Of a DNA stretch of 64,000 nt, positions 22,840 to 41,809 are shown in pieces. The stretch is from NCBI GenBank assembly GCA_016214985.1, contig JACRMM010000014.1:79293-143292 (forward strand), read 5' to 3'. The first letter of the stretch is position 1. Each line of letters starts with the position of its first letter. The DNA comes from Deltaproteobacteria bacterium. Its GTDB lineage: Bacteria > Desulfobacterota > Deferrisomatia > Deferrisomatales > JACRMM01. The position numbers and the translations under genes are program-made. Below the pieces are notes generated by a model that was given only the letters and a program-made list of their open reading frames with translations, was not told where the DNA came from and made no database searches.

Positions 22840-22857
22840 AGAACAGTCGTTTGTTCT
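22840..22857. promoter_or_regulatory. Operator A, AGAACA-N6-TGTTCT palindrome
   Basis: AGAACAGTCGTTTGTTCT is an 18-base site with 6-base perfect arms. The identical 18 bases occur at 29214-29231 and a variant at 41792-41809, upstream of a TetR gene. It is centred 48 bases downstream of the start of the TTGACA element, where a bound repressor would block RNA polymerase. It is 132 bases before the phosphatase start. Confidence 0.8.
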
Positions 22858-22989
22858 GTCATGCGCTCCGGCCCGGCAAAGGGGTCTGCCCTCGGGCCCC
22901 CGGCGATAACCAGAGCGAACGCGGTCGGCTCTCGGGCGGCGGGGAACCACGGAACTGGCCCTCGGGGAGCTCTGCCAAGGATCGTATCG

Positions 22990-23661
22990 ATGTCGGAGCT
23001 CTATTTCGTTCGTCACGGTCAGGCGGCGTTTGGTACTGACGATTACGATCGCCTGACCGACCTCGGCATTCAACAGTCGCAGTGGATCGGGGAGTACTTC
23101 GCGGAGCGAGGTGTGCGCTTCGACCGGATTCTGACCGGTGCCCTGGTCCGTCACCGGGAGACGCTGCAGGCGATGAACGGTTCGCTTCGCTTTCGGGGCG
23201 ACGCGGAGACCGATCCGGGACTGAACGAGTTTGCCCACGAGGCGCTACGCGATGCGCACGTCGGGTCCTCTCCCGAAGCGTCTCGATCCGAAGAGGACAC
23301 CCCACAGTCCTTCTATCGTCGGCTTGAGGTCGCGCTCCATGCCTGGGCGGCCGGCACGATCGAAGCGGGGGTCGGAGAGACCTGGCAGGACTTCACGCGC
23401 CGAGTGACGACGGCGCTGCTCGGCGCGTGCGCGGGACGCGGGAGGCGCGTTCTGATCGTCAGTTCCGGCGGGCCGATGGCCGTGGCGCTTGGCACCGTGT
23501 TGGGGCTGTCCGACGCCCAGATCATCGCGTTGAGCATGCAGGTCAAGAACACGGCGTTCAGCCATTTCTACTTCGACGAGCAACGCGTGCAGCTGGCGAG
23601 CTTCAACAACATCCCCCATCTCGACCGCGCGGAGCGGCGACACGCGATTACCCTGACCTGA
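22990..23661 (+). CDS. Histidine phosphatase family protein
   Basis: The 223-residue protein is a phosphoglycerate-mutase-like histidine phosphatase: LYFVRHGQA gives the catalytic RHG (about residues 8-10), [11 protein letters not shown] supplies the second Arg/His, and a late [10 protein letters not shown] takes the place of the usual GH motif, so the second catalytic His appears to be replaced by Gly-Gly. ATG at 22990 has AAGGA upstream. It begins a three-gene operon with an ACAD11-like dehydrogenase and a kinase-fold protein. It may dephosphorylate phospho-acyl-CoA or a side product; this is inference from context. Confidence 0.85.
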
Positions 23662-23680
23662 GCAACGGGAGGAACCATCG

Positions 23681-24904
23681 ATGCGGTTCGACTATTCGGA
23701 CAAGGTAGAAGGGCTAAGGGCCCGCCTCCACCGGTTCATGGACGAGCATGTGTATCCGGCCGAAGAGGTCTGTGAGGCCCACGCCGAGCGGGCGGACGAT
23801 CGCTGGACGACTCCGCCGGTGATCGACGAGCTGAAGGCGAAGGCAAGGGCCGAGGGGTTGTGGAATCTGTTCCTGGCCGAGTCCGAGCACGGCGCCGGGC
23901 TGACCAACCTGGAATACGCCCCGCTGGCCGAGATCATGGGCCGCTCCATGATCGGCCCGGAAGTGTTCAACTGCAACGCGCCGGACACCGGCAACATGGA
24001 AGTGCTGGCCCGCTTCGGCACCGCGCAACAGAAGGAGCGGTGGCTGACGCCGCTCCTGGCTGGGGAGATTCGCTCCGGCTTCGCGATGACGGAACCGGCG
24101 GTGGCATCGAGCGATGCCACCAACATCCGGGCCTCGATCGTCCGAGACGGCGACCAATACGTCATCAACGCCCACAAGTGGTGGACGAGCGGTGCCAACG
24201 ATCCGCGGTGCAAGATCCTGATCGTCATGGGCAAGACCGATGGGTCTGCGGATCAGTACCGGCAGCAGTCGCAGATCCTCGTTCCGATCGACGCGCCGGG
24301 TGTGGAGGTGGTGCGGGCGCTGAAGGTGTTCGGAGCCGAACACCCGCCGCACGGGCACGCCGAGCTGCGTCTGACCGACGTGCGCGTACCGGCGTCGAAC
24401 CTGATCGGCGAAGAAGGGCAGGGATTCGAAATCGCCCAGGCGCGGCTGGGACCGGGTCGCATTCATCACTGCATGCGCCTGATCGGGTGCGCCCAGCGGG
24501 CGCTGGAGATGATGTGCCGGAGGGTCGAGAGCCGCGTCGCGTTCGGCAAGAAGCTGAGCGAGCAGGGTTCGATCCGGGAAGACGTCGCGCGGTCCGCGTG
24601 TGACATCGAGCAGGCGCGTCTGCTCACGCTGTGTGCGGCAGAGAGAATGGACCGCAGCTCCTACAAGGAGGCCCGCGACCTGATCGCCATGATCAAGATC
24701 GTCGCCCCCAGCATGGCCCAGCAGGTCATCGATCGCGCCATCCAGGCCCACGGGGGCGGGGGCCTGTGCCAGGACTACTTCCTCGCCGATGCCTTCGGGT
24801 ACGCTCGCTATTGCAGGATCGCCGATGGACCGGATCAGGTGCACATGATGTCGCTCGGCAAACAGCTCATCCGGCGGTACGCGACCCAGGGGGACCCTCC
24901 ATGA
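23681..24904 (+). CDS. ACAD11-like acyl-CoA dehydrogenase
   Basis: The 407-residue enzyme is an acyl-CoA dehydrogenase of the ACAD10/ACAD11/LvaC-like branch. Features are the [20 protein letters not shown]/substrate motif, [13 protein letters not shown], the [20 protein letters not shown] helix, and ADGPDQVHM in place of the usual YEGTNE segment, a hallmark of this branch. In characterised homologues the enzyme eliminates phosphate from 4-phosphoacyl-CoA made by a partner kinase. Its stop overlaps the start of just such a kinase gene (ATGA). This neighbour makes the 4-hydroxyacyl-CoA role more likely than ordinary beta-oxidation. Confidence 0.88.
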
Positions 24905-25926
24905 ACGGCAGCGTGGGCGCGTTCGACGAGGGATTCCTGGCGACTTATCTGGAGCGTCACGTCGAGGGATTCAAAGGGCCTGTGCGGGCAGAGAAGTTCA
25001 CGGGTGGGCAGTCCAACCCGACGTTTCTCTTGAGGGCTGCCTCCGGCAACTACGTGTTGCGGCGCAAGCCGCCGGGACAGCTGCTCAAGTCGGCGCACGC
25101 CGTCGACCGCGAGTACCGCGTGATGCGTGCGCTTCGAGACAGCGAGGTCCCGGTCCCCCGGGTACATCACTTGTGCGACGACGACGAGGTCGTCGGCAGC
25201 ACGTTCTTTCTCATGGATTTCGTGCCCGGGCGGGTCTTCTGGAGCGCCGCCCTCCCGGAGCTGGAACCGGCGGCCCGCGGCGCCTGTTACGACGAGATGA
25301 GCCGGGTACTGGCGGCGATCCACAGCGTGGATGTTTCGGCGGTCGGGTTGGGCGACTACGGGAGCACCGGGAACTACTACGAGCGCCAACTCAAGCGGTG
25401 GAGCCAGCAGTATCGGGCCTCGGAGACGGAAACGGTCGAAGCGATGGAAGCGCTGATGAGCTGGCTGCCGAGCCACATGCCGAAGGATGACGGCCGCGTG
25501 AGCTTGATCCATGGCGACTACCGGCTCGACAACTTCATCTTTCACCCGGAGCGATCACGCATCGTCGCGGTCGTGGACTGGGAGCTCTCGACCCTGGGCC
25601 ACCCGCTGGCCGACCTGGCCTACCAGTGCATGCAGTGGCGCATCCCCGCCGAAGGCCCACTGCCGGGCCTGGGCGACATGGATCGCGCCCGGCTCGGGCT
25701 CCCCACCGAAGAGGAGTACGTGGCGGCCTATTGCCGGCGCATGGGTCTCGAATCCGTCGCCGACTGGAGCTTCTACCTCGCCTTTGGCTTCTTCCGGTTC
25801 GCCGCCATTCTTCAAGGGGTTCTGAAACGGAGTCTGGACGGGAACGCCTCCAACGATCGAGCTCTTCAGATGGGGGCATTGGTTCGGCCGTTGGCGGTCA
25901 TGGGGTGCGGCGCGGCGCGGTTGTAA
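24901..25926 (+). CDS. Aminoglycoside-phosphotransferase-fold kinase (LvaA/ACAD10-11 kinase-like)
   Basis: The 341-residue protein has the APH fold: an N-lobe with [12 protein letters not shown] and the ATP-binding Lys in YVLRRKPPG, then catalytic loop [14 protein letters not shown] (about 201-214) and metal-binding [12 protein letters not shown]. These are the motifs of the kinase domain of ACAD10/11 and of bacterial LvaA, which phosphorylate 4-hydroxyacyl-CoA. The ATG overlaps the stop of the ACAD11-like gene by four bases, so the two subunits are probably made together. The pair likely converts 4-hydroxyacyl-CoA into a form that can enter beta-oxidation. Confidence 0.88.
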
Positions 25927-25996
25927 CGGCCCGATCCGGGCGCCTCGGTCGGCAGTCACACGGCCGGACGACGAACCTCTAACCTACGGGTGTCCC

Positions 25997-26977
25997 ATGC
26001 CGGCCATCGAAGAAGTTCTCCCGGAGCTCTTCCGAATCGAAGTTCCCCTGCCCGAGAATCCTCTACGGTCCATCAACGTGTACGTGGCGAGGGGCGCCGA
26101 GCGCTCCCTGATCGTGGACACGGGCATGAACCGCGCGGAGTGCCAAGCCGCTCTGGGCGAGGGGCTCGGCGATCTCGGCATCGACACGGGGTGCGCCGAT
26201 TTCTTCGTCACGCACCTCCACGCCGATCACATCGGGCTCGCGAAGGCGTTTGCCCGGCCGGGCGCGACGGTCTTCCTGAGCCGCCTGGATGCCGTCTGGC
26301 TCGACGCCTGGACCGGGTGGGAGACGGTCTTGCCGCTGGCCGAGGCGCACGGCGTTCCCGTCCCTGAGCTGCGGGCCGAGATCGCGTCGAACCCCAGCCT
26401 CGCGTGGGAGCAAGAATGGCTCCCAGAGGTGAGCCCGGTGGACGAAGGGCGGGTCTTCGCCGTAGGCGCCTACCGGTTCGAGTGCGTCGAGACGCCTGGA
26501 CACACACCGGGACACATGTGCCTCTACGAGCGGAAGGCGAGAGTTCTGCTCTCCGGCGACCACGTCCTCGGCGACATCAGCCCCAACATCACCGGCTGGC
26601 TTCCGGGCCGGAACCCTCTGAAGGAGTACCTCGCCAGCCTGGACAAGGCCTCCAACCTGGAGGTCGACCTGGTTCTCCCTGGGCATCGCCGGCTTTTTCG
26701 AGACCACCGGGCCCGTATCGCAGAGCTCGGGCGGCACCACCGGACGAGGCTGGACGAAGTCCTCTCTCTGCTCACCGGGCGGTCTCTCACCGCCTTCGAG
26801 CTCGCTTCACGGATGACCTGGGATCTGAAGGGGTCCTGGGCGTCCTGGCCCGTGGCCCAGAAGTGGTTTGCCACGGGGGAGGCGATCGCTCACCTGGTTT
26901 ACCTGGAGGGGGAGGGGGCCGTGACGCGAGACGAAGGGGACCGGATTGTCTTCAGCCGCAGCACGCCCGGAGGCTGA
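25997..26977 (+). CDS. Metallo-beta-lactamase-fold hydrolase with C-terminal winged helix
   Basis: The 326-residue protein has the complete MBL metal site: THLHADHIGL (about 73-82), ETPGHTPGHM, LLSGDHVLG and LPGHRRLF. The last 90 residues look like a winged helix, as in LACTB2-type and related hydrolases found near acyl-CoA genes. The substrate may be a thioester or an ester; a glyoxalase II role is also possible. It lies 70 bases after the kinase, and its ribosome binding site is weak. It is probably the last gene of the phosphatase-ACAD-kinase transcript. Confidence 0.8.
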   Translation: MPAIEEVLPELFRIEVPLPENPLRSINVYVARGAERSLIVDTGMNRAECQAALGEGLGDLGIDTGCADFFVTHLHADHIGLAKAFARPGATVFLSRLDAVWLDAWTGWETVLPLAEAHGVPVPELRAEIASNPSLAWEQEWLPEVSPVDEGRVFAVGAYRFECVETPGHTPGHMCLYERKARVLLSGDHVLGDISPNITGWLPGRNPLKEYLASLDKASNLEVDLVLPGHRRLFRDHRARIAELGRHHRTRLDEVLSLLTGRSLTAFELASRMTWDLKGSWASWPVAQKWFATGEAIAHLVYLEGEGAVTRDEGDRIVFSRSTPGG

Positions 26978-29213: not shown

Positions 29214-29231
29214 AGAACAGTCGTTTGTTCT
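29214..29231. promoter_or_regulatory. Operator B, AGAACA-N6-TGTTCT palindrome
   Basis: These 18 bases are identical to operator A at 22840-22857, and the match extends at least two further bases on the 5' side. The site lies 14 bases after the -10 and 203 bases before the first gene. The long leader between them shows no gene. Confidence 0.8.
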
Positions 29232-29434: not shown

Positions 29435-31396
29435 ATGGCGACCAAAGTCTGGGGTCCTCAAATCCTTGTGCGTGCGCTGATGGAGGAGGGGATTCACACC
29501 AACTTCGGCATCACCGGCGGCCACATGAACAGCTTCGACGACTACTGGAGCATCTACGGCAACAAGCTGATCCACTGCCGGCACGAAGCCTCGGCAGGGT
29601 TCGCCGCCGAGGCCTACGCCAAGGTGACCGGAAAGATCGGCCTCACCCAGGCCACGGTCGGCCCGGGCGTCGCGAACCTGGTCCCTGCGATCAATCAAGC
29701 CTATCTCAGCAACACTCCGCTGATCTGTATCCTGGGGCAGACCCCCCTCGGGGATCGATACCGGAATCCCTTCCAGCCTCTCGACGGCAAGTCCCTGTAC
29801 CGGGACATCACGCGTTGGGCCCGCGAGGTGATCGAGCCCAGCACGCTGGCGACCCTCGTGCAGCAGGCGGCCCGGGACTGCATGGGGTACCCGCCGCTCC
29901 CCGTAGCCCTGGAAGTTCCCCTGAACTTCCTGGAGTTTGCCCCCCAGGCCCTTCACGACCCGACCGCGCAGGCGAACTACCGGATCGACAGGACCCACAA
30001 GAGGCCGTGGGAGCAGCCTCAACCCGTACCGAGCGACGAAGAGGTCGATTCGATCATCGGGTGGCTCGTGGAAGCCGAAAGGCCCATCGTCGTCGTCGGC
30101 CACGGCGGCCGGTGGCCGGACTGCGGAGACGCCCTGAAGGAGTTCGCGGAGCTCACACAGATCCCGATCCACCAGCGGCGGGCCTGCCGTGGGAGCGTCC
30201 CCGAGAACCATCCGCTCCACGTGGCCGGGGAAGCGCGGGGCGGCGCGTTCGCCCGGGCCGACCGCTTCCTCACGCTGGGGCTTCGCTTCGACGTGCTCGA
30301 GGCGTATGGGAATTGGGGGCGCGACAAGCGCTTCGTCCAGGTGACCGAGGCGCCTTCGGAGATCTGGTCCGAAATCACCACCGATATCGAAGCGATCGGA
30401 AACGTCAACGCCACCCTTCGCAAGCTGAGCCGGCGCATCCGGGAGAGCTACTCCGATCGGTTCCGCCAGAAGACGGCGTGGAGGGACGAGATCCTCGAGA
30501 TGAAGATCCAGGCGCACGAGAAGATGCTCAAGCGCATGGACGAGCTGAAGGGCCAATACACCCTGCCGAACCAGATCAGCCCCGACGTCTCCTCCACGCT
30601 GATCGCCGAGTACCTGCACCGGGCGGCGCCGGAGACCACGGTCATCCTGGACTCCTTCACCCTGTCGCCGTACATGAGCGAGAAGTTCCAGGCGGGCGTG
30701 ACCGGAGGCGTCTTGGACGCGGGGATCAACGGCGGCGTCGGCCACGGCATCGGCATGGGCATCGGCGCCCAGGTGGGCCGCCCCGGGAAGCCGGTCGTGT
30801 CGATCATGGGCGATGCGGGGATCGGGGCTCTCGGGGGGGACATCGAGACCGCCGTGCGGGAGCGGCTGCCGGTGGTCTACGTGGTGCACAACAACGGCGC
30901 CTGGATCGGCGGCTGGAACGCGATGTACGGCCGCGACTGGCACGGAGCACAGAATCCGCACGCGCGCGACACCGACAATGGCATGGGGACCTTGGAAGGC
31001 CGAACGCCCTACGCCAAGATGTACGAGATGATCGGGTGCCACGCCGAGACGGTGACCACGCACGACGGCATCGCGCCGGCCCTGGAACGCGCGCTGAACT
31101 CCGGAAAGCCGGCGGTGGTCGACCTCTACAGCGACCCCAACTCCTACCACACGCTGTGGGATCGCGGGACGTACGAGGGGCTCTTCTTCGTCATGCTCCA
31201 CCACCTGCCTGAGGAGATGTGGACGGGGATGGAGAGCTTCAAGGAGAGGACCCGAAAGATCATGAATGCCTTGGGGTACCCGGAATGGCCGAAGGCGCCT
31301 CGCCTGTTCCCGCCCTTCGACGAGAAGGAGGACTTCGAGTGGGTCTCCGGGCCGCCGCCCAAGTACTACAAAAAGAAGGAAGACAAGGCCGATTGA
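29435..31396 (+). CDS. ThDP-dependent enzyme, 2-hydroxyacyl-CoA lyase/oxalyl-CoA decarboxylase-like
   Basis: The 653-residue enzyme has all three parts of an acetolactate-synthase-type ThDP enzyme: the catalytic Glu51 in HCRHEASAGFAAEAYA, a central domain, and the ThDP/Mg motif GDAGIGALGGD...VVHNN near 468-498. Family members include acetolactate synthase, oxalyl-CoA decarboxylase and 2-hydroxyacyl-CoA lyase. It is about 80-100 residues longer than most, with a charged helical insert (about 330-375) and a C-terminal tail ending in a Lys-rich segment. Together with the dehydratase-like subunits downstream, a 2-hydroxyacyl-CoA lyase or synthase role (C-C bond cleavage or formation next to CoA) is the best guess. 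Confidence 0.85.
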   Translation: MATKVWGPQILVRALMEEGIHTNFGITGGHMNSFDDYWSIYGNKLIHCRHEASAGFAAEAYAKVTGKIGLTQATVGPGVANLVPAINQAYLSNTPLICILGQTPLGDRYRNPFQPLDGKSLYRDITRWAREVIEPSTLATLVQQAARDCMGYPPLPVALEVPLNFLEFAPQALHDPTAQANYRIDRTHKRPWEQPQPVPSDEEVDSIIGWLVEAERPIVVVGHGGRWPDCGDALKEFAELTQIPIHQRRACRGSVPENHPLHVAGEARGGAFARADRFLTLGLRFDVLEAYGNWGRDKRFVQVTEAPSEIWSEITTDIEAIGNVNATLRKLSRRIRESYSDRFRQKTAWRDEILEMKIQAHEKMLKRMDELKGQYTLPNQISPDVSSTLIAEYLHRAAPETTVILDSFTLSPYMSEKFQAGVTGGVLDAGINGGVGHGIGMGIGAQVGRPGKPVVSIMGDAGIGALGGDIETAVRERLPVVYVVHNNGAWIGGWNAMYGRDWHGAQNPHARDTDNGMGTLEGRTPYAKMYEMIGCHAETVTTHDGIAPALERALNSGKPAVVDLYSDPNSYHTLWDRGTYEGLFFVMLHHLPEEMWTGMESFKERTRKIMNALGYPEWPKAPRLFPPFDEKEDFEWVSGPPPKYYKKKEDKAD

Positions 31397-31448: not shown

Positions 31449-31676
31449 ATGCCTAAATTTCACTGCACCAAATGCAATATCGACGCGGATGTTCCTTTTG
31501 GCGGCTGGCACTGGGAAGGCAAAGAGGCCGGGAAGGAACACTTCACTCACAGGGGATACGTGATCCCCGACCCGCAGAACCCTCTTCGGCTCATCTGCAA
31601 GGACGGGTACGATCCGAAACTGTTGATGCCGATCCACTGGGAGTGCGGGGAGGTGTTCCAGTACGTGCCCGATTAG
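31449..31676 (+). CDS. 75-residue Cys-containing small protein
   Basis: The small protein begins PKFHCTKC, a CxxC knuckle, and has two further Cys (ICKDG and HWECGE), so four Cys could hold one Zn or an Fe-S cluster. The middle part is rich in Trp, Gly and His. AGGAG lies eight bases before the ATG. It sits 52 bases after the ThDP enzyme gene and about 180 bases before the BcrB-like gene, clearly inside the operon. I recognise no family. It may be an accessory subunit of one of its two large neighbours. Confidence 0.7.
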   Translation: MPKFHCTKCNIDADVPFGGWHWEGKEAGKEHFTHRGYVIPDPQNPLRLICKDGYDPKLLMPIHWECGEVFQYVPD

Positions 31677-31854
31677 GCCCGTGTCCGCCCGGCAGTCCCG
31701 CGCTGCCGGGCGGCTGCTCACAACGACGCCGCTGACGGGTTCGCAGTCGGGCAGCGCGTGGGTCCTGGTTTCCCCGAGCGGGGCGGCTCCCCAGTCCGGC
31801 ACGGAAGGGCGTCGCCGGGGAAGGATGGCTGCTAAGGTTCCAAAGGAGGATTTC

Positions 31855-33198
31855 GTGGACGAGGTCAAGAAGCCCAGGGCCATTGCCAGTTTGAAGAGTA
31901 CGGCCGCCCTGCGGGGGATGGTCGATGAGGCGTACAAGGGAACCGTGGCCGCCATGGCGGAGGGGAAGCCGACCGCCTGGGCCATGGCGAACTGGTGGCA
32001 AGGATCCCCGATCCTGAAGGCGATGGACATCGAAGCCGTCTACCCGGAGAACTACGGCGCTGTCTGCGCGGCGACCGGTGTTGCGCAGCGATACCTCGAG
32101 ATCTCGGACTCGGTCGGTTTCCCCACGCATCTGTGCGGCTACATGCGGGTCAACTTCGGGTACACCCACCGGATGATGGCCGAGTTGGGGGGGCAGATCC
32201 CGCCCGAGGCGCCTATGGGGGGCATGCCGAAACCGGTCCTGCTGCTCGGCTCCGGCATCGTGTGCGACCCGAGGTACAAGTGGTTTCAGGCTCTCGGGCG
32301 CTATCTCGACGCGCCGGTCTACAACCTGGAGATGCCGAATCCCGGAACCAAGGAATTCTTTCACGAGGGGGCTGCCGAGCACGCCGTACAACTCGCCGTG
32401 CAGAGCACGAGGGACTTCATCGCCTTTGTCGAGAAGCTTGTCGGGCGGCGGATGGACTACACTCGGTTGGAGGAAACCGTTGACGACATGCTGACGATGC
32501 TTCGGATCTGGTATGACGTCAATGCGCTCCGGAAGGCAAGACCGTCGCCCATGCATGCGAGGCATTTTTGGACCTGCATGCCGCCCGCGCTGTTCGTCCT
32601 GGGTGACATCAAGAAATCGATCGAGTACTACTCTGCTCTCTACGTCGAACTCCGAGAGCTCGTCGACGCGGGCGGCTGCGCCATTGCTCAGGAAAAATAC
32701 AGGCTTGGATGGGCCGAGCTGCCCCCGTGGCACAGCCTGAACTTCTTCGACGCGCTGGCAGAGCGGGGATGGAATTTTGTCACGGAGAGTTTCAGCTACC
32801 ATGCACCTGTTCCCTTAGATGTCAGTGCGATCCGCGATCCAGTCGAGAGAATAGCTAGAAATACGCTGCAATGGTACACAGCAGGGTATGATTATGCCAG
32901 AAGAACGGGGGGCCACATGGGGTTTCTCGGCGACCCCTACGTACAGCTGGCCGAGGAGTATAGGCTTGACGGCCTGATGCTGCACCAACTCTTGACCTGC
33001 CGCACCGCTTCGAACCATCTGGCGTATGTCCGAGAGGCGACGATGAGCCGATTGAGCGTCCCTTCTTTGATGGTTCAAGGCGACATTGTCGACTTCACGC
33101 TCTTCGATCCCGCAGACACCCTGCGCAAGGCCGAGGCGTTTGAAGAGGTCATGGACCATCACAGGGAAGAGCGCAAGAAGAGAGGTTTCGATTGGTAG
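31855..33198 (+). CDS. BcrB/HgdA-like 2-hydroxyacyl-CoA dehydratase subunit
   Basis: The 447-residue product belongs to the HgdA/HgdB/BcrB/BcrC family (COG1775), radical enzymes with a [4Fe-4S] cluster that dehydrate 2-hydroxyacyl-CoA or reduce aromatic acyl-CoA. Candidate ligands are Cys71, Cys94 (THLCGYMR), Cys241 (FWTCMPP) and Cys382 (LLTCRTASNH). Its length fits BcrB. I chose GTG at 31855 because AAAGGAGG lies five bases upstream; an ATG at 31825 would add ten residues but has no room for a binding site. The partner subunit is 4.8 kb downstream, not adjacent. An ATPase activator is not visible nearby. Confidence 0.85.
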   Translation: MDEVKKPRAIASLKSTAALRGMVDEAYKGTVAAMAEGKPTAWAMANWWQGSPILKAMDIEAVYPENYGAVCAATGVAQRYLEISDSVGFPTHLCGYMRVNFGYTHRMMAELGGQIPPEAPMGGMPKPVLLLGSGIVCDPRYKWFQALGRYLDAPVYNLEMPNPGTKEFFHEGAAEHAVQLAVQSTRDFIAFVEKLVGRRMDYTRLEETVDDMLTMLRIWYDVNALRKARPSPMHARHFWTCMPPALFVLGDIKKSIEYYSALYVELRELVDAGGCAIAQEKYRLGWAELPPWHSLNFFDALAERGWNFVTESFSYHAPVPLDVSAIRDPVERIARNTLQWYTAGYDYARRTGGHMGFLGDPYVQLAEEYRLDGLMLHQLLTCRTASNHLAYVREATMSRLSVPSLMVQGDIVDFTLFDPADTLRKAEAFEEVMDHHREERKKRGFDW

Positions 33199-33235
33199 CT
33201 GCGCTCTCACTCTGCATGACGAGAGAAGAAATGAG

Positions 33236-34579
33236 ATGAGACACCCTGTTGTTGCGATCGTGAAGTACGCCGACCCCTACGAATCCGTGGCTCGAGCCCT
33301 GGAACTGAGCGACGGTCTGGCGGGTCTCCGTCCGGGAGACAAGATCCTGATCAAGCCGAACTTGGTGGAGTGGGAATTCGAGCTGCCGTACCCGCCGTGG
33401 GGTGTGGTCACGACCAGTGCGGTCATGGGCGCCCTCGTGCGGATCCTGGCGGAGCGAGGGTATCGCAACCTCACGATCGGCGAAGGGACTCCTCTGCCCC
33501 ACGCAAAGGGGAAGGGCCGGAAAGTGTTCGGAGTCCTCGGCTACGAGACGCTGCGGGACAGGTATGGCGTGCAACTGGTCGATTTCGACGAGGAGACGTT
33601 CGAGGACGTGGACCTCGGCGACCTAACACTCTCTCTGGCCCGAAGAGCCCTGGAGGCCGACAAGATCATCACCGTCCCCGCCCTGAAGACCCACGGCGTC
33701 TGCCAGGTTTCCCTCGGGATCAAGAACCTGAAGGGCTGCATCAGCAGGAAGTCCAAGAAGTTCTGCCACCACCCGGAGCGGAATCTCAGCCACACGTTTC
33801 CTCACCTGCTGCAGAGACTTCCGGTGGCCCTCAACCTGATCGACGGCGTGTATGCCCTGGAACGGGGGCCGACACACAACGGGCGGGCCTACCGGAGAGA
33901 TCTCCTCGTGGCGTCGACCGACGTCTACGCGGGGGACGTCGTCGGAGCGAAACTCATCGGCCACGAGGTGGTCGACGTACCCCATTTGCAGTATTTCGGC
34001 CAGAAGGAGGGTCGCCTGGCGGACGTCGATCACATCGACGTGCGCGGCGAGTCCATGGAGGAGAACAAGGTCAGGCTCGAGTGGGACACGCCGTGGAGGG
34101 AAGACAACAGCGGACCCACTGCCTTTGACAAACTCGGGATCGCCGGTCTGTCCTTCCGGAAGCCGGACACGACCGTCTGCACGAACTGCGCCTGTGTCAT
34201 GGCCCCTTCTCTCGTCATGCTGATGTCCGCGTACAACAACGAGACCTCCGGCACCATTGAAGTCATCACGGGAAAGAAGACCGTGGCGAGAGAAGGCTTC
34301 GACAAGACCGTGCTGCTCGGACGGTGCGCAACTGCGCTGAACAAAGACAATGCGGGCATCAAGCAGCGGATCGAGCTCAATACGTGTCCTCCCGACATGC
34401 ACAAGCTGGCAGAGGCCATGCGGGAGGTAGGCGTCAACTGTGACTACGCCGTCTACGAGCAGTTTCGCCAGAAAGCGTTCAACCGGTACAAGGAGTCCGA
34501 CGGCTTCACGCTGTCGATGTATTCCGTGGCATCCGACGGTCCCTCGGCGGGGGCCGAGACCCAAACGGCAACCCGGTAA
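33236..34579 (+). CDS. DUF362 family protein
   Basis: The 447-residue protein is a DUF362 member. Family features are the opening VAIVKYADP, ILIKPNLVEW, the ALKTHGVCQVSLGIKNLKGCISR stretch (about 150-172) and the later TVCTNCACVMAPS, a compact CxxCxC motif. DUF362 proteins are often found beside redox and Fe-S enzymes; the biochemical role is mostly unknown. The CTNCAC motif could hold a metal or Fe-S cluster. The ribosome binding site is weak. It lies 38 bases after the BcrB-like gene, so it is likely part of the same enzyme system. Confidence 0.85.
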   Translation: MRHPVVAIVKYADPYESVARALELSDGLAGLRPGDKILIKPNLVEWEFELPYPPWGVVTTSAVMGALVRILAERGYRNLTIGEGTPLPHAKGKGRKVFGVLGYETLRDRYGVQLVDFDEETFEDVDLGDLTLSLARRALEADKIITVPALKTHGVCQVSLGIKNLKGCISRKSKKFCHHPERNLSHTFPHLLQRLPVALNLIDGVYALERGPTHNGRAYRRDLLVASTDVYAGDVVGAKLIGHEVVDVPHLQYFGQKEGRLADVDHIDVRGESMEENKVRLEWDTPWREDNSGPTAFDKLGIAGLSFRKPDTTVCTNCACVMAPSLVMLMSAYNNETSGTIEVITGKKTVAREGFDKTVLLGRCATALNKDNAGIKQRIELNTCPPDMHKLAEAMREVGVNCDYAVYEQFRQKAFNRYKESDGFTLSMYSVASDGPSAGAETQTATR

Positions 34580-34739
34580 GCCGGCTTTCCGTCTGCGGTG
34601 CTGCCTCGTTCGCCGGGGCAAGAGCCCGCGGTGCACCGTCGTGAACGGAGTCGGACCCGCCTCGGTGGTCATCGGGTGAACCCCAGGGTGGGGCTGCACC
34701 TGGTGCGATACCCCGGGAAACTTGAGAGGAGGAGCAGGG

Positions 34740-35951
34740 ATGGAGAACCATGAGGTCGTGATCGTATCGGCGGTTCGAACCCCGATCGGGAAGTTCGGGG
34801 GGGCACTGAAGGATTTTCGAAGCATCGACCTGGGGGCCCTGGTGATCAAAGAGTGTCTCCGCCGCGTGGGCGTCGGGCCGGAAGAGGTCGAAGAGGTCAA
34901 CTATGGCCTCTCCGTTCTCCTGGAGGCCGGGCTGGAGACGGACATCCCCGGTCGACAGGCAACGCTGTTTGCCGGCTTCCCTCCGGAGAGCATCTCGCTC
35001 ACGGTGAACCGCGCGTGCTGCTCTTCGCTTTCGGCGCTTCGGCTCGGGTACCGGGCCATTCGCTCGGGCGAGATCGACGTCGCCATGGCGGTCGGGTCGG
35101 ACAACATGGGACGGGCGCCGCACGTGGCACCGGACGCTCGGTGGGGCAAGCGGTTGGGGCACATGACCCTGACCGACCCACTTTTCGCCCTGGGGTACCC
35201 GGACTTCGCGCCCGTGGCGCGCGATGCGGGAGAGGTCGCCGTGGAACAGGGCGTCAGCCGGCAAGAGCAGGACGAGTGGGCGGTGAGGAGTCACGAGCTC
35301 TATTTTCAGGCGCACCGGCAGGGGAAGCTTGCCCTCGGGGAAGAGTTGATGGCAGTCGACGTTCTCCAGAAGAAGGGGCCGGCCGTGGCCTTCGTTCAGG
35401 ACGAGTCCCCTCGGGAAGGCACGACGGTCGAGCAACTTGGGAAGCTGCCGACGATCTACGGGAGCCCCACCGTGACCGCCGGCAACGCCCCGGGGCTGTG
35501 CACGGGGTCCACGTGCCTCCTCATGATGAGCGCCAAGAAAGCCAAGGCGATGGGGCTGACGCCTCTTGCCACCATCCTCTCCTCCGTTGCAACGGCGACC
35601 GATGCTCGACTGATCGCCACAATCCCGGCGCCTACGATCGTAAAGGCCGTGGAGAAGGCTGGCCGGAAGCTGGAGGACATGAGTCTGATCGAGATCAACG
35701 AGGCCTTTGCCGCCATGCCGCTGGTGAGCACGAAGCTCCTCGCCGCCGGCGACAGCCGGCGTCTCGAGGAGCTGCGAGCGAAGACCAACGTCAACGGCGG
35801 GTCGATCGCCATGGGGCATCCGGTCGGGGCGACCGCCCTGCGAATTACGATGACGGCGATGTACCAACTGAGGAGGCGTGGAGGAGGGTACGGCGTGGCA
35901 GCGATCTGCGGAGGCCTCGCTCAGGGCGAAGGAATCGTGATCAAGGTGTAA
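34740..35951 (+). CDS. Thiolase (acetyl-CoA acyltransferase)
   Basis: The 403-residue enzyme has canonical thiolase elements: nucleophilic Cys in NRACCSSLSAL (about 90), the NEAFA loop, GHPVGATALR with the catalytic His, and the second Cys in ICGGLAQGEG near the C-terminus. It is a much more typical thiolase than the one at 17566. It should cleave or build a 3-ketoacyl-CoA. GAGGAGG precedes the ATG by nine bases. It is followed by 3-hydroxyacyl-CoA dehydrogenase and enoyl-CoA hydratase genes, a standard beta-oxidation trio. Confidence 0.95.
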   Translation: MENHEVVIVSAVRTPIGKFGGALKDFRSIDLGALVIKECLRRVGVGPEEVEEVNYGLSVLLEAGLETDIPGRQATLFAGFPPESISLTVNRACCSSLSALRLGYRAIRSGEIDVAMAVGSDNMGRAPHVAPDARWGKRLGHMTLTDPLFALGYPDFAPVARDAGEVAVEQGVSRQEQDEWAVRSHELYFQAHRQGKLALGEELMAVDVLQKKGPAVAFVQDESPREGTTVEQLGKLPTIYGSPTVTAGNAPGLCTGSTCLLMMSAKKAKAMGLTPLATILSSVATATDARLIATIPAPTIVKAVEKAGRKLEDMSLIEINEAFAAMPLVSTKLLAAGDSRRLEELRAKTNVNGGSIAMGHPVGATALRITMTAMYQLRRRGGGYGVAAICGGLAQGEGIVIKV

Positions 35952-35988
35952 TCGGGGGGCGCGGCGAACCGCGGGCGTGGGTGTGCCT

Positions 35989-36015
35989 GTCCGCTTCGCT
36001 CCGCGGAGCGCGGAC
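35989..36015 (+). terminator. Internal hairpin between thiolase and dehydrogenase
   Basis: GTCCGC pairs with GCGGAC, and inside lies the palindrome GCTCCGCGGAGC. TGTTTC follows. It may attenuate the operon between the two halves or stabilise the upstream mRNA end. Confidence 0.4.
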
Positions 36016-36097
36016 TGTTTCTGGTGGGGTGCCCGCTTGACCGGGTCGTATCTGAGCGCCAGCGGGTTCCGAACTTGAGGGGAAAGGAAGTAAGACC

Positions 36098-36952
36098 ATG
36101 GAGATCAAACGCATCGCGGTGCTCGGCGCCGGCATCATGGGCAACGGCATCGCCCAGGTCAGTGCGGCTGCCGGGTACGAGGTGTTTCTCCGAGACGTTG
36201 AAGATCGATTCCTGCAGCGCGCGCGGGAAACGATGGAGAAGAGTCTCGATCGAATGGCCAAGAAAGGGAAGATCGCCGAGGAAGAGGTGGCGAAGATCCT
36301 GGGGAGGGTGAAGGGCACCACGGACTTCGGTGAGGCCGTCAGCGAAGCAGATCTGGTCATCGAGGCCGTTCCCGAGAATCTGGAGTTGAAGAGGTCGACG
36401 TTCAGGGATCTCGCCGGGGCCTGCCGGCCGGAGACAATCCTGGCCTCCAATACGTCCAATTTCAGCATCACGAACCTCGCTTCCGTGACAGGACGTGCCG
36501 CCAACGTGATCGGCATGCACTACTTCAACCCCCCGGCGATGATGAACCTCATCGAGGTCGTCCGCGGCCTCGATACGTCGGACGAGACCCTTCAGGTGGT
36601 GTTGGACTTTGCGGCGCGGTGTGGGAAGAAGACCGTGGTCTGCAAGGATTCGCAGGGGTTCATCACGAGCCGTATGATCAACCTGTGGCTCGTCGAGGCG
36701 GAACGGATCCTGGAGGAAGGGGTGGCGACCCGGGAGGATATCGATGCGGCCTGCCGCTTGGCCTTCAACCACCCCATGGGGCCTTTCGAATTGGCCGACT
36801 TCTCCGGGCTCGACACCAAGCTGGCCGTCGCCGACGCGATGTGCCAGATGTTCGGAGACCGGTTCCGGTCCCCCCAGACCGTGCGGAACCTGGTCTCCGC
36901 CGGATACCTGGGGAGGAAGTCCGGAAAAGGCTGGTACGACTACTCCAAGTGA
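36098..36952 (+). CDS. 3-hydroxyacyl-CoA dehydrogenase (Hbd type)
   Basis: The 284-residue product has the length of classic 3-hydroxybutyryl-CoA dehydrogenases. The NAD fold opens VLGAGIMGNGIAQV, followed by the family segments EAVPENLELK, SNTSNFSIT, HYFNPPAMMNLIEVV (with the catalytic His) and GFITSRMINLW. The C-terminal domain has NHPMGPFELADFSGLD, the typical dimer region. It oxidises 3-hydroxyacyl-CoA with NAD. GGAAAGGAAG precedes the ATG. It is distinct from the longer, more divergent dehydrogenase at 20638. Confidence 0.96.
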   Translation: MEIKRIAVLGAGIMGNGIAQVSAAAGYEVFLRDVEDRFLQRARETMEKSLDRMAKKGKIAEEEVAKILGRVKGTTDFGEAVSEADLVIEAVPENLELKRSTFRDLAGACRPETILASNTSNFSITNLASVTGRAANVIGMHYFNPPAMMNLIEVVRGLDTSDETLQVVLDFAARCGKKTVVCKDSQGFITSRMINLWLVEAERILEEGVATREDIDAACRLAFNHPMGPFELADFSGLDTKLAVADAMCQMFGDRFRSPQTVRNLVSAGYLGRKSGKGWYDYSK

Positions 36953-37063
36953 GGCCCCGTCCACGCGCGCTTCGACGAGTACCGACCGCGTGTGGAGACA
37001 TCGCTCGGTCCGACGGCACCCTCGCCGCGGGCTGAAGGTTTACGCATGGGACAGGAGGTAGAC

Positions 37064-37849
37064 GTGGAGTTCGAGACCATCATCTACGGGAAAGACGGCG
37101 GGGTTGCCACCGTCACATTCAATCGGCCTGCGCAGCTCAATGCGCTGAATATCCGGATGATCGAAGAGTTGGTGGCGGCCTTCAGCGACGTTGCTGCCGA
37201 CGACCGGGTCAGGGTTCTCGTCGTAACCGGAAACGAGAAGGCCTTCGGGGCGGGGGCCGACCTCAAGATGATCCATGGCCTTGCCACCACCGCCTCTGCT
37301 CACGCCTTCTTCACGGGCCTCCAGGGCGAGCCGTACCGGCGCCTGAGCGGCGTTGGAAAGCCGACCATTGCCGCCGTGGCCGGAATCGCCTTGGGCGGCA
37401 TGTGTGAGCTGGCTCTCGCCTGCGACCTGCGGATCGCCGCCGAGAATGCGACGTTTGGGCTTCCTGAAATCAAGTTGGGCCTGCTTCCGGGCGGGGGCGG
37501 CACCCAACGGTTGCCGAGATTGGTGGGCGCGACCAAGGCCAAAGAGATGCTCCTCACCGGCGACTCCATCGACGCACAAGAGGCGTACCGGATCGGGCTT
37601 GTGAACAAGGTGGTTCCGCTCGAGAAGCTCATGGAGGAGACCAACTCCCTGGCGCAGAAACTGGCGGCTCGCCCGCCATTTGCGCTGCAGATGATCAACA
37701 CGGCCGTCAACACAGGGCTGGACCTCTCCCTGGACGCGGCACTCGCCTACGAAGGCAGGTGCTTCGAGATGCTCTTCTCCACCGAGGATATGAAGGAAGG
37801 CGTCCAGGCGTTCATCGAAAAGAGAAAGCCCGCGTACACGGGTCGGTAG
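37064..37849 (+). CDS. Enoyl-CoA hydratase/isomerase (crotonase family)
   Basis: The 261-residue protein is a crotonase: it opens with the typical GVATVTFNRP strand, has AFGAGADLKM forming one half of the oxyanion hole, and IALGGMCELALACDLRIA forming the other. Glu in ELALACD and the later FGLPEIKLGLLPGGGGTQRLPRLVG support hydratase activity. GTG at 37064 has AGGAGG six bases upstream and gives the normal length; ATG at 37046 would add six residues. It hydrates the 2-enoyl-CoA that a dehydratase would make. Confidence 0.94.
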   Translation: MEFETIIYGKDGGVATVTFNRPAQLNALNIRMIEELVAAFSDVAADDRVRVLVVTGNEKAFGAGADLKMIHGLATTASAHAFFTGLQGEPYRRLSGVGKPTIAAVAGIALGGMCELALACDLRIAAENATFGLPEIKLGLLPGGGGTQRLPRLVGATKAKEMLLTGDSIDAQEAYRIGLVNKVVPLEKLMEETNSLAQKLAARPPFALQMINTAVNTGLDLSLDAALAYEGRCFEMLFSTEDMKEGVQAFIEKRKPAYTGR

Positions 37850-38006
37850 GGGCGCTGGGCAACCCCCCGACCGATGCTGCACTGTGCTCCGTTTCACATG
37901 TTGCGGCAGACGAGAAGCGATGGAGACGGAGGGGACGACCGGGCGCCATCGAAGGGTCCCGCTCGTGAACGTGACGTCCACCGGACCGAACAGAGGGAGA
38001 TGTGCG

Positions 38007-39164
38007 ATGCAGGGTCTTGCCAGGGCGCGAGCGGTGCTCGCCGATCGAACGAAGGTCGCACGGGACGCGCAGCAGAAGGGAACACGGGTCCTCGGCTACC
38101 TGTCCGTCCAGGTCCCGCTGGAGATCCTCACCGCCTTCGACATAGCCCCCTTCCGCATCTTCGGGGATATCCGCGAGCCGGTGACCGAGGCCGACCGAGG
38201 GCTTCCGTCCGCCTTCTGCCCCTACTTGCGAAGCGTTCTGGACCTGGCGCTGAAGGGAAGGTTCGGTTTTCTCGACGGCTTCGTGGGGAGCCACGCCTGC
38301 GATGCGCAGGAGAAGACGGTCCGGATTCTGCCATCGCTCGTCGAATTCCCGTACACGCACTACCTCGACATGCCGGCGAACATCCACGAGTCGTCGATCG
38401 AGTACTTTCGGACGCAGCTTCTCGACTTCAAAGACAGCCTCGAGAGCCTCACCGGACGGACCCTGAGCGAGCGCCGGCTCCTGGAGGCGATCGGCGCTCA
38501 CAATGACCAGCGCGGCCTGGTTCGGGAACTCTACGCGCTGAACCAGTCGGACCCTCCCGCGCTCACGGGCCGGGAGATGCTGGAGGTGATCACGGCGCTT
38601 CAGACGCTACCGGTGGACGAAGGCAATCGGTTGCTCCGGGAAGTGCTGCCGGAGGTGAAGACCAGGAGGGAGAGACCCGCCTCGAAGAGCGCCAGGCTTC
38701 TCGTGTGGGGGGGTGTTCTCCACGATCCGGTGTACATCGACGCGATAGAAGCCGCAGGAGCCAACGTGGTGATCGACGACCTGGACGAGGGCACGAGGCC
38801 GTTCACCACGGATGTCGCCGCGGAGGGAGATCTCTTCGACCACCTCGCCCGCAAGTACCTGGTCGGCGTCTACGCTGCGAGAACATTCCGTGAATCCGTC
38901 GTCGGCGAAACGGTGAAGGATCATGCGACGGACCTGCAATCGCGCTTCGGATACCTGGGCAGGTTCATCAAGGACTGGAAGGTGGACGCCGTGATCCTCC
39001 AGGCCGTGCGCTACTGCGATCCTCACGGTGCGGACGTGGTCGACCTTACGGACTACCTGGAGTCGCTGGGTGTGCCAAGCACATACGTGGAGCACAACTA
39101 CAGCGAGGGAGCCCTGGCCCCCTTGAGGACGAGGCTCGAGGCGTTCGTGGAGACGGTCTCGTAA
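38007..39164 (+). CDS. BcrC/HgdB-like 2-hydroxyacyl-CoA dehydratase subunit
   Basis: The 385-residue protein is the second COG1775 subunit, matching BcrC/HgdB in length. Three Cys in the expected places (Cys71 in AFCPYLRS, Cys98 in SHACDAQE and Cys337 in RYCDPHG) can hold a [4Fe-4S] cluster with one open iron for substrate. The segment GYLSVQVPLEILTAFDIAPFRIFG is the usual family opening. GAGGGAGA is upstream of the ATG. It should pair with the BcrB-like subunit at 31855. In most operons the two are adjacent; here thiolase, dehydrogenase and hydratase genes come between them. Confidence 0.88.
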   Translation: MQGLARARAVLADRTKVARDAQQKGTRVLGYLSVQVPLEILTAFDIAPFRIFGDIREPVTEADRGLPSAFCPYLRSVLDLALKGRFGFLDGFVGSHACDAQEKTVRILPSLVEFPYTHYLDMPANIHESSIEYFRTQLLDFKDSLESLTGRTLSERRLLEAIGAHNDQRGLVRELYALNQSDPPALTGREMLEVITALQTLPVDEGNRLLREVLPEVKTRRERPASKSARLLVWGGVLHDPVYIDAIEAAGANVVIDDLDEGTRPFTTDVAAEGDLFDHLARKYLVGVYAARTFRESVVGETVKDHATDLQSRFGYLGRFIKDWKVDAVILQAVRYCDPHGADVVDLTDYLESLGVPSTYVEHNYSEGALAPLRTRLEAFVETVS

Positions 39165-39258: not shown

Positions 39259-40044
39259 ATGATGACGACGGCACGGTTGTCGGATCGAGTGAAGGGCGTG
39301 GCCCTTCGCGCCGGAGCCGACCTGGCCGGCATCGTGAAAGTCCGCGACCTGACGGAGCACGCCGAGGAGATCGAGCGGGCCCTCCCCGGTGCCGACAGCG
39401 TGCTCGTCCTCGGCGTGCGTCATAGCCTCGCCGCGCTCCGGTCGGGCCACAACCCGGCGGCCCAGTTCGACACCCTGTTCGCGTATGGGGAGTGCCTGCG
39501 GTCGGCGGGCACGGCGAGCCGCTTCCTCGAAGCCAAGGGGTTCCCCTCCGTGGCGTTGCCTGCGTTCATTCCACTCGATATGGGGGACATCAAGAAGGGC
39601 ATGCGGGGCGAGATCTGCTGGCGGAGAGCCGGTGTCCGGGCGGGGCTCGGCTCCTACGGGGAGAACGGACTGCTCGTGACTCGGCGCTTTGGCTCGGCCC
39701 TTCGCCTCGCGGGCCTGGTCACGACAGCAGACCTGGAGGCGGACGCGCCGCTGGAGACGGACGTCTGCGATCACTGCCTGCGCTGTGTTCGCGCGTGCCC
39801 CGAGGGCGCGCTCTTCGGTGAGGGGAGGGTCGACAAGAAGCGCTGCGGTGACCGGATCTTCCGCTACGGCTTTCGCTTTTTCGAGAGGTTCGTCGACGGG
39901 CTGCGCCGCGGACCGGAGGAATCGGCCCCGGGCGGAGCCGAGCTGCGGGAGCTCTGGCAGACGTTCATGACCGGGAATTACTACTACTGCTTCGCCTGCC
40001 AGGCCCAGTGCCCGGCATCCGATCTTCCCGACCGGCAGCCGTAG
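39259..40044 (+). CDS. QueG-like double [4Fe-4S] protein
   Basis: The 261-residue protein resembles the iron-sulfur part of epoxyqueuosine reductase and reductive-dehalogenase-type proteins. It has CDHCLRCVRACP (about residues 172-183) and a second set formed by KRCGD plus CFACQAQCP near the C-terminus, giving two [4Fe-4S] clusters. The N-terminal half (GADLAGIVKV, LVLGVRHS, GLGSYGENGLLVT) matches the QueG fold. It is shorter than QueG. Its place after the BcrC-like subunit suggests it brings low-potential electrons to the dehydratase/reductase. AGGAGG precedes the tandem ATGs. Confidence 0.82.
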   Translation: MMTTARLSDRVKGVALRAGADLAGIVKVRDLTEHAEEIERALPGADSVLVLGVRHSLAALRSGHNPAAQFDTLFAYGECLRSAGTASRFLEAKGFPSVALPAFIPLDMGDIKKGMRGEICWRRAGVRAGLGSYGENGLLVTRRFGSALRLAGLVTTADLEADAPLETDVCDHCLRCVRACPEGALFGEGRVDKKRCGDRIFRYGFRFFERFVDGLRRGPEESAPGGAELRELWQTFMTGNYYYCFACQAQCPASDLPDRQP

Positions 40045-40185: not shown

Positions 40186-40953
40186 ATGGACGTGAAGAGT
40201 GTGGTAGCCGTGGTCACGGGGGGCGCATCGGGGCTCGGGGAAGCGACGGCACGGACGCTCGTCGCGGCGGGGGCGAAGGTGTCGCTCCTCGACTTGAACC
40301 AGGAGAGAGGGCAGGCCGTAGCTGCGGAGCTTGGTCCCTCCGCCATCTTCTGCAACACGGATGTGACGGACGACGGCTCCGTCCGATCCGCGATCGCCGA
40401 GACCCTCCGGGCCTTCGGCGCGATCAACGTCGCCGTCAACTGCGCGGGCGGTGGTATGCCGGCGAAGATCCTGGGAAAGGGAGGTCCGATCGACCTCGCC
40501 GCCTTCAACAAGGTCGTCCAGCTCAACCTGATGGGTACCGTCAATGTGATCCGGCTCGTGGCGGAGAAGATGCGGGACCAAGCGCCCAACGAGGAGGGCG
40601 AACGGGGCGTCATCATCAACACGGCGTCGGCTGCGGCGTTCGAGGGGCAGATTGGCCAGCCGGCGTACAGTGCCTCCAAGGCGGGCATCGTGGGGATGAC
40701 CCTGCCGATTGCGCGGGAGTTTGCCGACATCGGGATTCGCGTCGTGACGATCGCGCCTGGACTCTTCGACACTCCGCTCCTCGCGATCCTTCCGCCGGCC
40801 GTGAAGGAAGCGCTCGGCCAGTCGGTGCCCTTTCCGAAGCGTCTCGGCAGACCGTCGGAGTACGCCTCGCTGGCGAAGCACATCATCGAAAACGTCATGT
40901 TCAACGGCACGGTGCTCCGTCTGGACGGCGCGATCCGCATGGCGGCCAAGTGA
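40186..40953 (+). CDS. SDR oxidoreductase, type II 3-hydroxyacyl-CoA dehydrogenase-like
   Basis: The 255-residue enzyme is a short-chain dehydrogenase. [12 protein letters not shown] is the NAD-binding glycine motif, Asp in LLDLNQ points to NAD rather than NADP, NCAGGG is the usual NAG variant, and the triad is Ser in INTASAAA with Tyr and Lys in PAYSASKAG. The overall sequence looks like human HSD10 (HADH type II), which oxidises 3-hydroxyacyl-CoA and hydroxysteroids. AAAGGAGAGG precedes the ATG. It is the last gene of the operon, before an intrinsic terminator. Confidence 0.92.
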
Positions 40954-41086: not shown

Positions 41087-41731
41087 TCAGCTTTCTCTTG
41101 TCGACAGCCGCGGGCCCCTATCTACTCCCAGTGCCCTGAGGATGAATCCGGTGACTTCTTCAATCATCTGGTCGACGGAATATCGTTGCTTTAGATTCCA
41201 CCACTTCATAGGCTCAAGAAACATCATGTACTGAATCAAATTCGCGGCCATAAAAGAATCATTGATATCAAAAGATCCATGCCTTATGCCCCTTAAAAGT
41301 AATTTCTCCACGCATTCGACCATGTACGCTTCTTTGTCTAGAACTGCTTTCAACCATTCCGCTTCGAGATGGCGGCTCTCAGTCCACATGGAGCGAAGTG
41401 TGTTCTTGTTGTCGTGAATGAGGTGAAGCACATCCGAGATGAATCGCTCCAGCTGCTGGATGGCGTCTGCATCCGTCGGCTCCGCCAATTCGTTGTAAAT
41501 ATGGGCATATATACGACTAACTCCTTCGTAGAATATGTACAGAACATCGTTCTTGGAAGAGACATATTTGTATAGATAGGACAAGTTGATGCCAGAGGCT
41601 TTCGATATATCCCGCATGCTGGTTTTTTGATAGCCATACCTTCCGAACAAATCGACTACGGCATTGTAGATCTGTTCGTGCCGCTTGCTGACTAACTCCG
41701 GATTCTCAACTTGTGTTGTCACTCGATTCAT
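41087..41731 (-). CDS. TetR-family regulator (AT-rich, predicted regulon repressor)
   Basis: The 214-residue protein has an N-terminal TetR helix-turn-helix (about 17-62): IYNAVVDLFGRYGYQKTSMRDISKASGINLSYLYKYVSSKNDVL. The C-terminal domain is helical with a Met/Trp-rich last third (YMMFLEPMKWW), suggesting a hydrophobic ligand pocket. The gene is strikingly AT-rich: 41221-41280 has 20 G/C of 60, against surroundings well above half. It faces the catabolic operon. Its own promoter carries the palindrome also found before the two catabolic operons, so I infer it is the regulator that binds all three. Confidence 0.88.
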   Translation of the reverse strand: MNRVTTQVENPELVSKRHEQIYNAVVDLFGRYGYQKTSMRDISKASGINLSYLYKYVSSKNDVLYIFYEGVSRIYAHIYNELAEPTDADAIQQLERFISDVLHLIHDNKNTLRSMWTESRHLEAEWLKAVLDKEAYMVECVEKLLLRGIRHGSFDINDSFMAANLIQYMMFLEPMKWWNLKQRYSVDQMIEEVTGFILRALGVDRGPRLSTRES

Positions 41732-41791: not shown

Positions 41792-41809
41792 AGAACAGAC
41801 GATTGTTCT
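41792..41809. promoter_or_regulatory. Operator C, AGAACA-N6-TGTTCT palindrome
   Basis: AGAACAGACGATTGTTCT keeps both 6-base arms of operators A and B; only the 6-base centre differs (GACGAT against GTCGTT). It lies 60 bases upstream of the TetR start, so it fits autoregulation. A central CG is shared by all three. Confidence 0.8.

Follow-up and report, generated by a model that had tools for sequence, protein, structure and literature searches.

How can a radical enzyme be supplied with electrons if the genes for its two subunits lie apart and the ATPase activator expected beside them is missing? This question is raised by an operon in the window analyzed here, i. e. a stretch of 64,000 nucleotides from a Deltaproteobacteria bacterium (positions 79293 to 143292 of the 351,713 bp contig C1; genome G000, 5.6 Mb). 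Two of its genes, referred to as B and C, probably encode the paired subunits of a [4Fe-4S] radical enzyme from the 2-hydroxyacyl-CoA dehydratase (HAD)/class I benzoyl-CoA reductase family:

31855 to 33198, + strand: B subunit, BcrB/BzdO/HadB-like, 447 amino acids, with the cluster cysteines C104, C147 and C392
38007 to 39164, + strand: C subunit, BcrC/BzdN/HadC-like, 385 amino acids, whose only cysteines are C71, C98 and C337

Both products match the Pfam family HGD-D (PF06050), with 146 bits for B and 245 bits for C against a cut-off of 28.4. For B, the GTG start at 31855 is preferred over an upstream ATG at 31825 in view of an AAGGAGG motif five bases upstream and of the resulting 447 amino acids, which equal the length of its relatives in the alignment; residue numbers of B are counted from the ATG at 31825. 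The initial annotation had pointed to the separation of the two genes and to the lack of an ATPase, and both observations hold. Within a single run of + strand genes, the end of B at 33198 and the start of C at 38007 are 4808 bp apart, and this gap contains genes for a DUF362 protein, a thiolase, a 3-hydroxyacyl-CoA dehydrogenase and an enoyl-CoA hydratase, all on the + strand. Neither the window nor the whole of contig C1 encodes a BcrA/BcrD/HgdC-type activator (PF01869). Of the two explanations that had been put forward, electrons arriving by another way or an activator that is shared and encoded elsewhere, the second is well supported and provides the best reading.

The full-genome hidden Markov model search for activators that had been suggested as a check yielded 11 ASKHA domains (PF01869), along with 14 HGD-D domains. 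On contig C44, a paralogous pair, B' (65% identity to B) and C' (59% to C), is directly followed by two ASKHA genes that reach 207.7 and 153.7 bits against PF01869 and each carry cysteines at two shared conserved positions. The same holds for G001, the genome of another genus of the same family, which harbors a separate compact set (B'C'-ASKHA1-ASKHA2) on its contig C198 besides a split operon. As a paralogous set with activator is present in both genomes, the surprise of the missing activator largely dissolves. Judging from kinship, the C44 ASKHA pair would most likely be the one that activates the split B/C. An orphan ASKHA pair on contig C41, with 37-39% identity to C44 ASKHA1, was considered as a donor as well and is possible, albeit less likely than the C44 pair. 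This orphan pair (locus L030:9673-11324) is found on a contig without an HGD-D gene, next to AOR-family/HdrA-like genes resembling parts of class II benzoyl-CoA reductases.

That subunits of this kind normally stand beside their activator, as the initial annotation had assumed, is borne out by the clade itself. Scanning 84,980 species genomes with a five-sequence alignment gave 20 loci, while a single-protein query gave none. Setting aside L074 (B alone) as well as L064, L065 and L077 (cut by contig ends), 16 informative loci are left. In 14 of these, two ASKHA genes come directly after B and C, the second one being broken in L068; in L062 and L076, no ASKHA gene is adjacent. Based on this count, the compact B-C-ASKHA1-ASKHA2 order is the usual state of the clade, and the window holds a derived copy that dropped it. 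ASKHA genes are encoded elsewhere in the genomes checked, and activators are present in all four of them, i. e. those of L062, L074, L076 and L079. In one Chloroflexota genome, a compact operon whose second ASKHA gene is interrupted (L068:12728-16089) occurs along with a lone B-type gene at another locus that has no C nearby (L074:10001-11329).

The split arrangement is genuine and old. In G001, the operon has the identical gene order, again without an ASKHA gene beside it, and its products resemble those of the window (93% identity for the first enzyme of the operon, 87% for the small protein that follows, 82% for B and 74% for C). The ratios of nonsynonymous to synonymous substitution rates (dN/dS) between the two genomes are as low as 0.07 for the first enzyme, 0.09 for B and 0.14 for C, the latter two being approximate as dS exceeds 1, which indicates that all three genes are maintained by purifying selection. 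Together, the gene order in G001 and the low dN/dS exclude an assembly error or gene decay as the origin of the split. In phylogenetic trees, split B and split C from both genera each form clades with 100/100 support beside the compact ones. Hence, split and compact versions have coexisted since before the two genera parted.

Ten + strand genes between 29435 and 40953, separated by no more than about 180 bp, make up the operon and are likely transcribed together; a TetR gene on the opposite strand closes the cluster. With B in third and C in eighth place, the remaining features are:

29215 to 29230, no strand: palindrome GAACAGTCGTTTGTTC, putative TetR operator upstream of the operon, with further copies at 22841 to 22856 and 41793 to 41808
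29435 to 31396, + strand: thiamine diphosphate (ThDP)-dependent enzyme, 653 amino acids, with oxalyl-CoA decarboxylase and 2-hydroxyacyl-CoA lyase as closest solved relatives
31449 to 31676, + strand: 75-amino-acid protein with a CxxC motif that matches no known family, between the ThDP enzyme and B
33236 to 34579, + strand: DUF362 protein whose C-terminal part is conserved and contains Cys, also found at this position in G001
34740 to 35951, + strand: thiolase (acyl-CoA acetyltransferase), 86% identity in G001
36098 to 36952, + strand: 3-hydroxyacyl-CoA dehydrogenase, 79% identity in G001
37046 to 37849, + strand: enoyl-CoA hydratase of the crotonase family, 71% identity in G001
39259 to 40044, + strand: QueG-like Fe-S protein, possibly an electron carrier, with a pair of [4Fe-4S] motifs, 78% identity and the same place in G001
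40186 to 40953, + strand: short-chain dehydrogenase/reductase (SDR)
41087 to 41731, - strand: TetR-type regulator to which the palindrome probably belongs, 74% identity and at the end of the equivalent cluster in G001

Copies of the palindrome, of the form GAACAN6TGTTC, are found ahead of three units: the ThDP gene (29215), the TetR gene (41793) and a further gene set that lies upstream (22841). These three are the only perfect matches genome-wide, all of them inside the window. In G001, a drifted form, AGAAC(A/G)GGCGT(T/A)CGTTCT, precedes both the ThDP gene and the counterpart of the upstream set. The finding that the initial annotation had named as fatal to its reading was a dedicated activator elsewhere in the genome that is co-regulated by this palindrome. 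No such activator emerged from a genome-wide search with one mismatch, and a looser form of the palindrome is absent from every activator locus of the genome that was examined. The upstream set (22841-26977) comprises genes for a histidine phosphatase, an acyl-CoA dehydrogenase, an APH-type kinase and a metallo-beta-lactamase-fold protein, a set that resembles modules of the ACAD10/11 or LvaA type for the phosphorylation of hydroxyacyl-CoAs.

What, then, might the enzyme do? The ThDP-dependent enzyme stays below the cut-offs of the curated 2-hydroxyacyl-CoA lyase and oxalyl-CoA decarboxylase equivalogs (214 vs 600 and 207 vs 557 bits), and its best solved matches are nonetheless these two enzymes. 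According to our proposal, it would couple a ketone or aldehyde with an acyl group of one carbon, from formyl-CoA or an equivalent, to form a 2-hydroxyacyl-CoA, from which B/C would remove water via a ketyl radical to give a 2-enoyl-CoA. The latter could then be hydrated by the operon-encoded crotonase, oxidized by the 3-hydroxyacyl-CoA dehydrogenase (or the SDR) and cleaved by the thiolase; all enzymes needed downstream of the enoyl-CoA are encoded in the operon. An ASKHA pair encoded elsewhere, most likely that of C44, would activate B/C in trans. As the electron of a dehydratase is recycled, only occasional ATP-driven activation would be needed. Dehydration followed by the re-addition of water at C3 would afford a 3-hydroxyacyl-CoA without B12, and the operon genes do not include a B12 mutase. 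By chemistry of this kind, butanone would be converted via tiglyl-CoA into acetyl-CoA and propionyl-CoA, a course that the operon might follow. We regard it as an evenly balanced proposition that B/C is a radical 2-hydroxyacyl-CoA dehydratase in such a formylation-dehydration-thiolysis pathway, activated in trans.

A biological setting for this proposal is provided by acetone-degrading sulfate reducers, where ketones are presumed to be formylated by a ThDP enzyme, yielding 2-hydroxyacyl-CoAs that are then linearized by a B12 mutase; an HGD-D pair is also strongly induced in ketone-degrading sulfate reducers, its role having been left open (PMC7888143, PMC8084838, PMC4103992). The ketone-induced sets of Desulfococcus biacutus, Desulfosarcina cetonica and Desulfotomaculum spp. 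share with the window the combination of a ThDP enzyme, an HGD-D pair, a hydratase, a dehydrogenase and a thiolase. In D. cetonica, the induced pair bears the tags 11156/11157 and the induced ThDP enzyme the tag 105227 (PMC7888143), which we read as contig plus gene number. In a check of this reading with the ThDP tag, the ThDP protein from contig C71 of the window's genome matches D. cetonica contig 52 with 62% identity. D. cetonica contig 115 carries the one HGD-D pair found whose genes are immediate neighbors. This pair is the clade member L079 (42-43% identity to B/B', 40% to C') and is followed by two ASKHA genes. Subject to the tag reading, this match to 11156/11157 ties the clade to growth on ketones. 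Furthermore, a MaoC hydratase gene directly follows ASKHA2 in L071 and L075, the latter of which also contains a B12 mutase. In contrast to the ketone-induced ThDP/B12 mutase/benzoyl-CoA reductase-like sets, the window operon lacks the mutase, its B and C are split without ASKHA, and its ThDP enzyme has a distant relationship to the acetone type, with an identity to the C71 copy of about 25%. The acetone-type cluster on C71 (locus L038:5373-18095) encodes a ThDP enzyme, an HGD-D pair, an ASKHA pair, an SDR, a B12 mutase, MeaB and a CoA ligase. A second set with ThDP enzyme and HGD-D pair on C56 (locus L034:3173-11834) contains a hydratase, a thiolase, an SDR and a TetR regulator, has no neighboring ASKHA gene, and its C-type subunit retains the complete set of six double-cubane cysteines.

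The metal ligands of C bear on the chemistry. The [8Fe-9S] double-cubane cluster of BzdN is held by Cys36/73/100/263/293/327, while HADs have no double cubanes and require just one electron, which is ATP-activated and recycled (PMC11971306). At these six sites, the window C has S33, C71, C98, D260, A290 and C337, i. e. three of six cysteines; A290 is equated by the clade alignment, the pairwise alignment with BzdN being gapped there. C thus lacks three of the six ligands of class I BZD-type reductases and resembles the HADs, whose C-type subunits are without a full double-cubane set. The same three ligands are lost in the C' of C44 and in both G001 copies. By comparison, all six are kept in L062, L063, L067, L068, L075, L076, L078 and G018 as well as in the distant copies on C56 and C17 of the window's genome, and of the 15 clade members at a greater distance, 14 have five or more; L071 C apparently lost ligands separately. 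This pattern suggests that the distal sub-cluster was lost recently within a double-cubane clade. It argues, as far as the ligands go, for HAD-like one-electron chemistry without proving it. The cluster cysteines of B occur in 17 of 17 alignment rows, and B has equivalents of the three in BzdO. In six C subunits from Dehalococcoidia/Chloroflexi (L066, L069, L070, L073, L080, L081), serine replaces the equivalent of C98.

Further likeness to the (R)-2-hydroxyisocaproyl-CoA dehydratase HadBC with its activator HadI is seen in the heterodimer fold (template modeling (TM) scores to HadB/HadC of 0.67-0.71 for B and 0.86-0.88 for C), in the three cluster cysteines per subunit and in the YPEN glutamate motif of B, whose E75 occupies the site of HadB Glu55/BzdO Glu65. 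Differences from HadBC are the 4.8 kb between the subunit genes and the genomic context, a ThDP enzyme and beta-oxidation genes in place of amino acid fermentation. The double-cubane cluster protein DCCP, which acts with its own reductase, likewise shares the fold, and most compact relatives keep its six cysteine positions. In contrast, DCCP is a homodimer with a double cubane per subunit, and C scores 178 bits against the double-cubane anaerobic reductase model NF040772, below its 350-bit cut-off.

Several observations weigh against a dehydratase. HadB Ser37 and Glu55 are active-site residues, and B has Ala55 where HadB and BzdO carry serine; the site of the catalytic His131 of BzdO is taken by Arg150, which is invariant in the clade of B. 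The combination of E75, Ala55 and Arg150 suggests an active site of its own type, and from these residues the chemistry may be neither that of a dehydratase nor that of a reductase. In the segments seen, MbdN of 3-methylbenzoyl-CoA reductase likewise carries cysteines at none but the retained sites. As this reductase also appears to lack the double cubane, the loss of that cluster in C was dropped as proof of a dehydratase. AlphaFold models (C: predicted local distance difference test (pLDDT) 87.6, predicted TM score (pTM) 0.90; B: pLDDT 80.0, pTM 0.83) find only members of the HGD-D/BCR-HAD family in the Protein Data Bank (PDB). The C model is closest to BzdN (TM 0.90), followed by HadC (0.88), and the B model is about equally close to BzdO (0.73) and HadB (0.71). 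C scores BzdN and the double-cubane family above HadC, and the overall scores do not prefer a dehydratase over a reductase. Unlike HADs with their single homodimeric ASKHA activator, the operon has none and the nearest paralogue carries two different ASKHA genes. Finally, the palindrome is absent from C44, whose activator may or may not be co-expressed with the split operon.

Some of these points are shared by the strongest alternative, in which B/C is an ATP-dependent reductase of the class I benzoyl-CoA or methylbenzoyl-CoA type that relies on an activator in trans and either uses a CoA ester, aromatic or otherwise, as substrate or aids synthesis of the one-carbon donor for the ThDP enzyme. 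C has its best sequence and fold match in the class I reductases BzdNO (Aromatoleum) and MbdNO (Thauera chlorobenzoica), being nearest to BzdN, and the two different ASKHA genes of the compact relatives recall benzoyl-CoA reductases, whereas classical dehydratases have one. Most compact relatives also keep five or six double-cubane cysteines, and the authors of a ketone study presumed a role for part of the induced enzymes in the formation of an activated formyl residue (PMC8084838). Yet a reductase would need ATP-driven electrons in each turnover, which makes the lack of a co-regulated activator harder to explain. In addition, C lacks the three double-cubane ligands, the operon contains no ring-cleavage or other aromatic degradation genes, and its downstream enzymes all suit an aliphatic enoyl-CoA. 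Benzoyl-CoA reductase proper was rejected on account of the incomplete ligands and the missed cut-offs: the class I equivalog models TIGR03190/03191/02260/02263 all gave scores far too low (e. g. 87 vs 449 and 131 vs 454 bits in NCBIfam). On balance, we consider a reductase unlikely, though worth serious attention.

It is improbable that B and C are mainly not partners and that one or both instead assemble with B' or C' of C44 and the ASKHA pair. The identities of B to B' and of C to C' speak for such mixing, and the genome encodes three B-type and only two C-type members of the clade, including an orphan B'' on contig C59 (locus L031:9671-11011; 90% identity to B') that has no C and adjoins genes for a B12 mutase, thiolase/DUF35 and ThDP proteins. 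Nevertheless, both genera have retained B and C together in a single operon, with purifying selection acting on the two genes, and the split clades in the tree of B match those in the tree of C. More improbable still is an ASKHA-independent enzyme that receives its electron from the QueG-like or the DUF362 protein: the two genes hold their places in G001, a weak QueG-like match stands beside the B-C-ASKHA operon of D. cetonica and L062 and L076 have no ASKHA neighbor either, but all genomes checked, including those of these two loci, encode activators, a very low potential would be required, no precedent was found in the family, and apart from the QueG-like protein adjoining C nothing speaks for the other electron route that the initial annotation had considered.

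Returning to the dehydratase, its origin can be sketched tentatively, with somewhat less confidence than its function. The operon may represent a mutase-free anaerobic route in which the ThDP-dependent addition of one carbon to a ketone or aldehyde is followed by a radical dehydratase that shifts the C2 oxygen to C3 by way of an enoyl-CoA. This dehydratase may have arisen from an ancestor resembling double-cubane reductases that lost the distal sub-cluster and subsequently dropped its own activator in favor of a shared one.

With the activator located in a paralogous set, the remaining interest of the locus lies in the pathway hypothesis and in the cluster loss. The operon suggests a concrete role for the ketone-induced benzoyl-CoA reductase-like pairs, i. 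e. radical dehydration of a 2-hydroxyacyl-CoA made by a ThDP enzyme. It also presents a case in which one activator apparently serves several radical enzymes, and its clade allows the change from a double-cubane to a single-cluster enzyme to be traced residue by residue.

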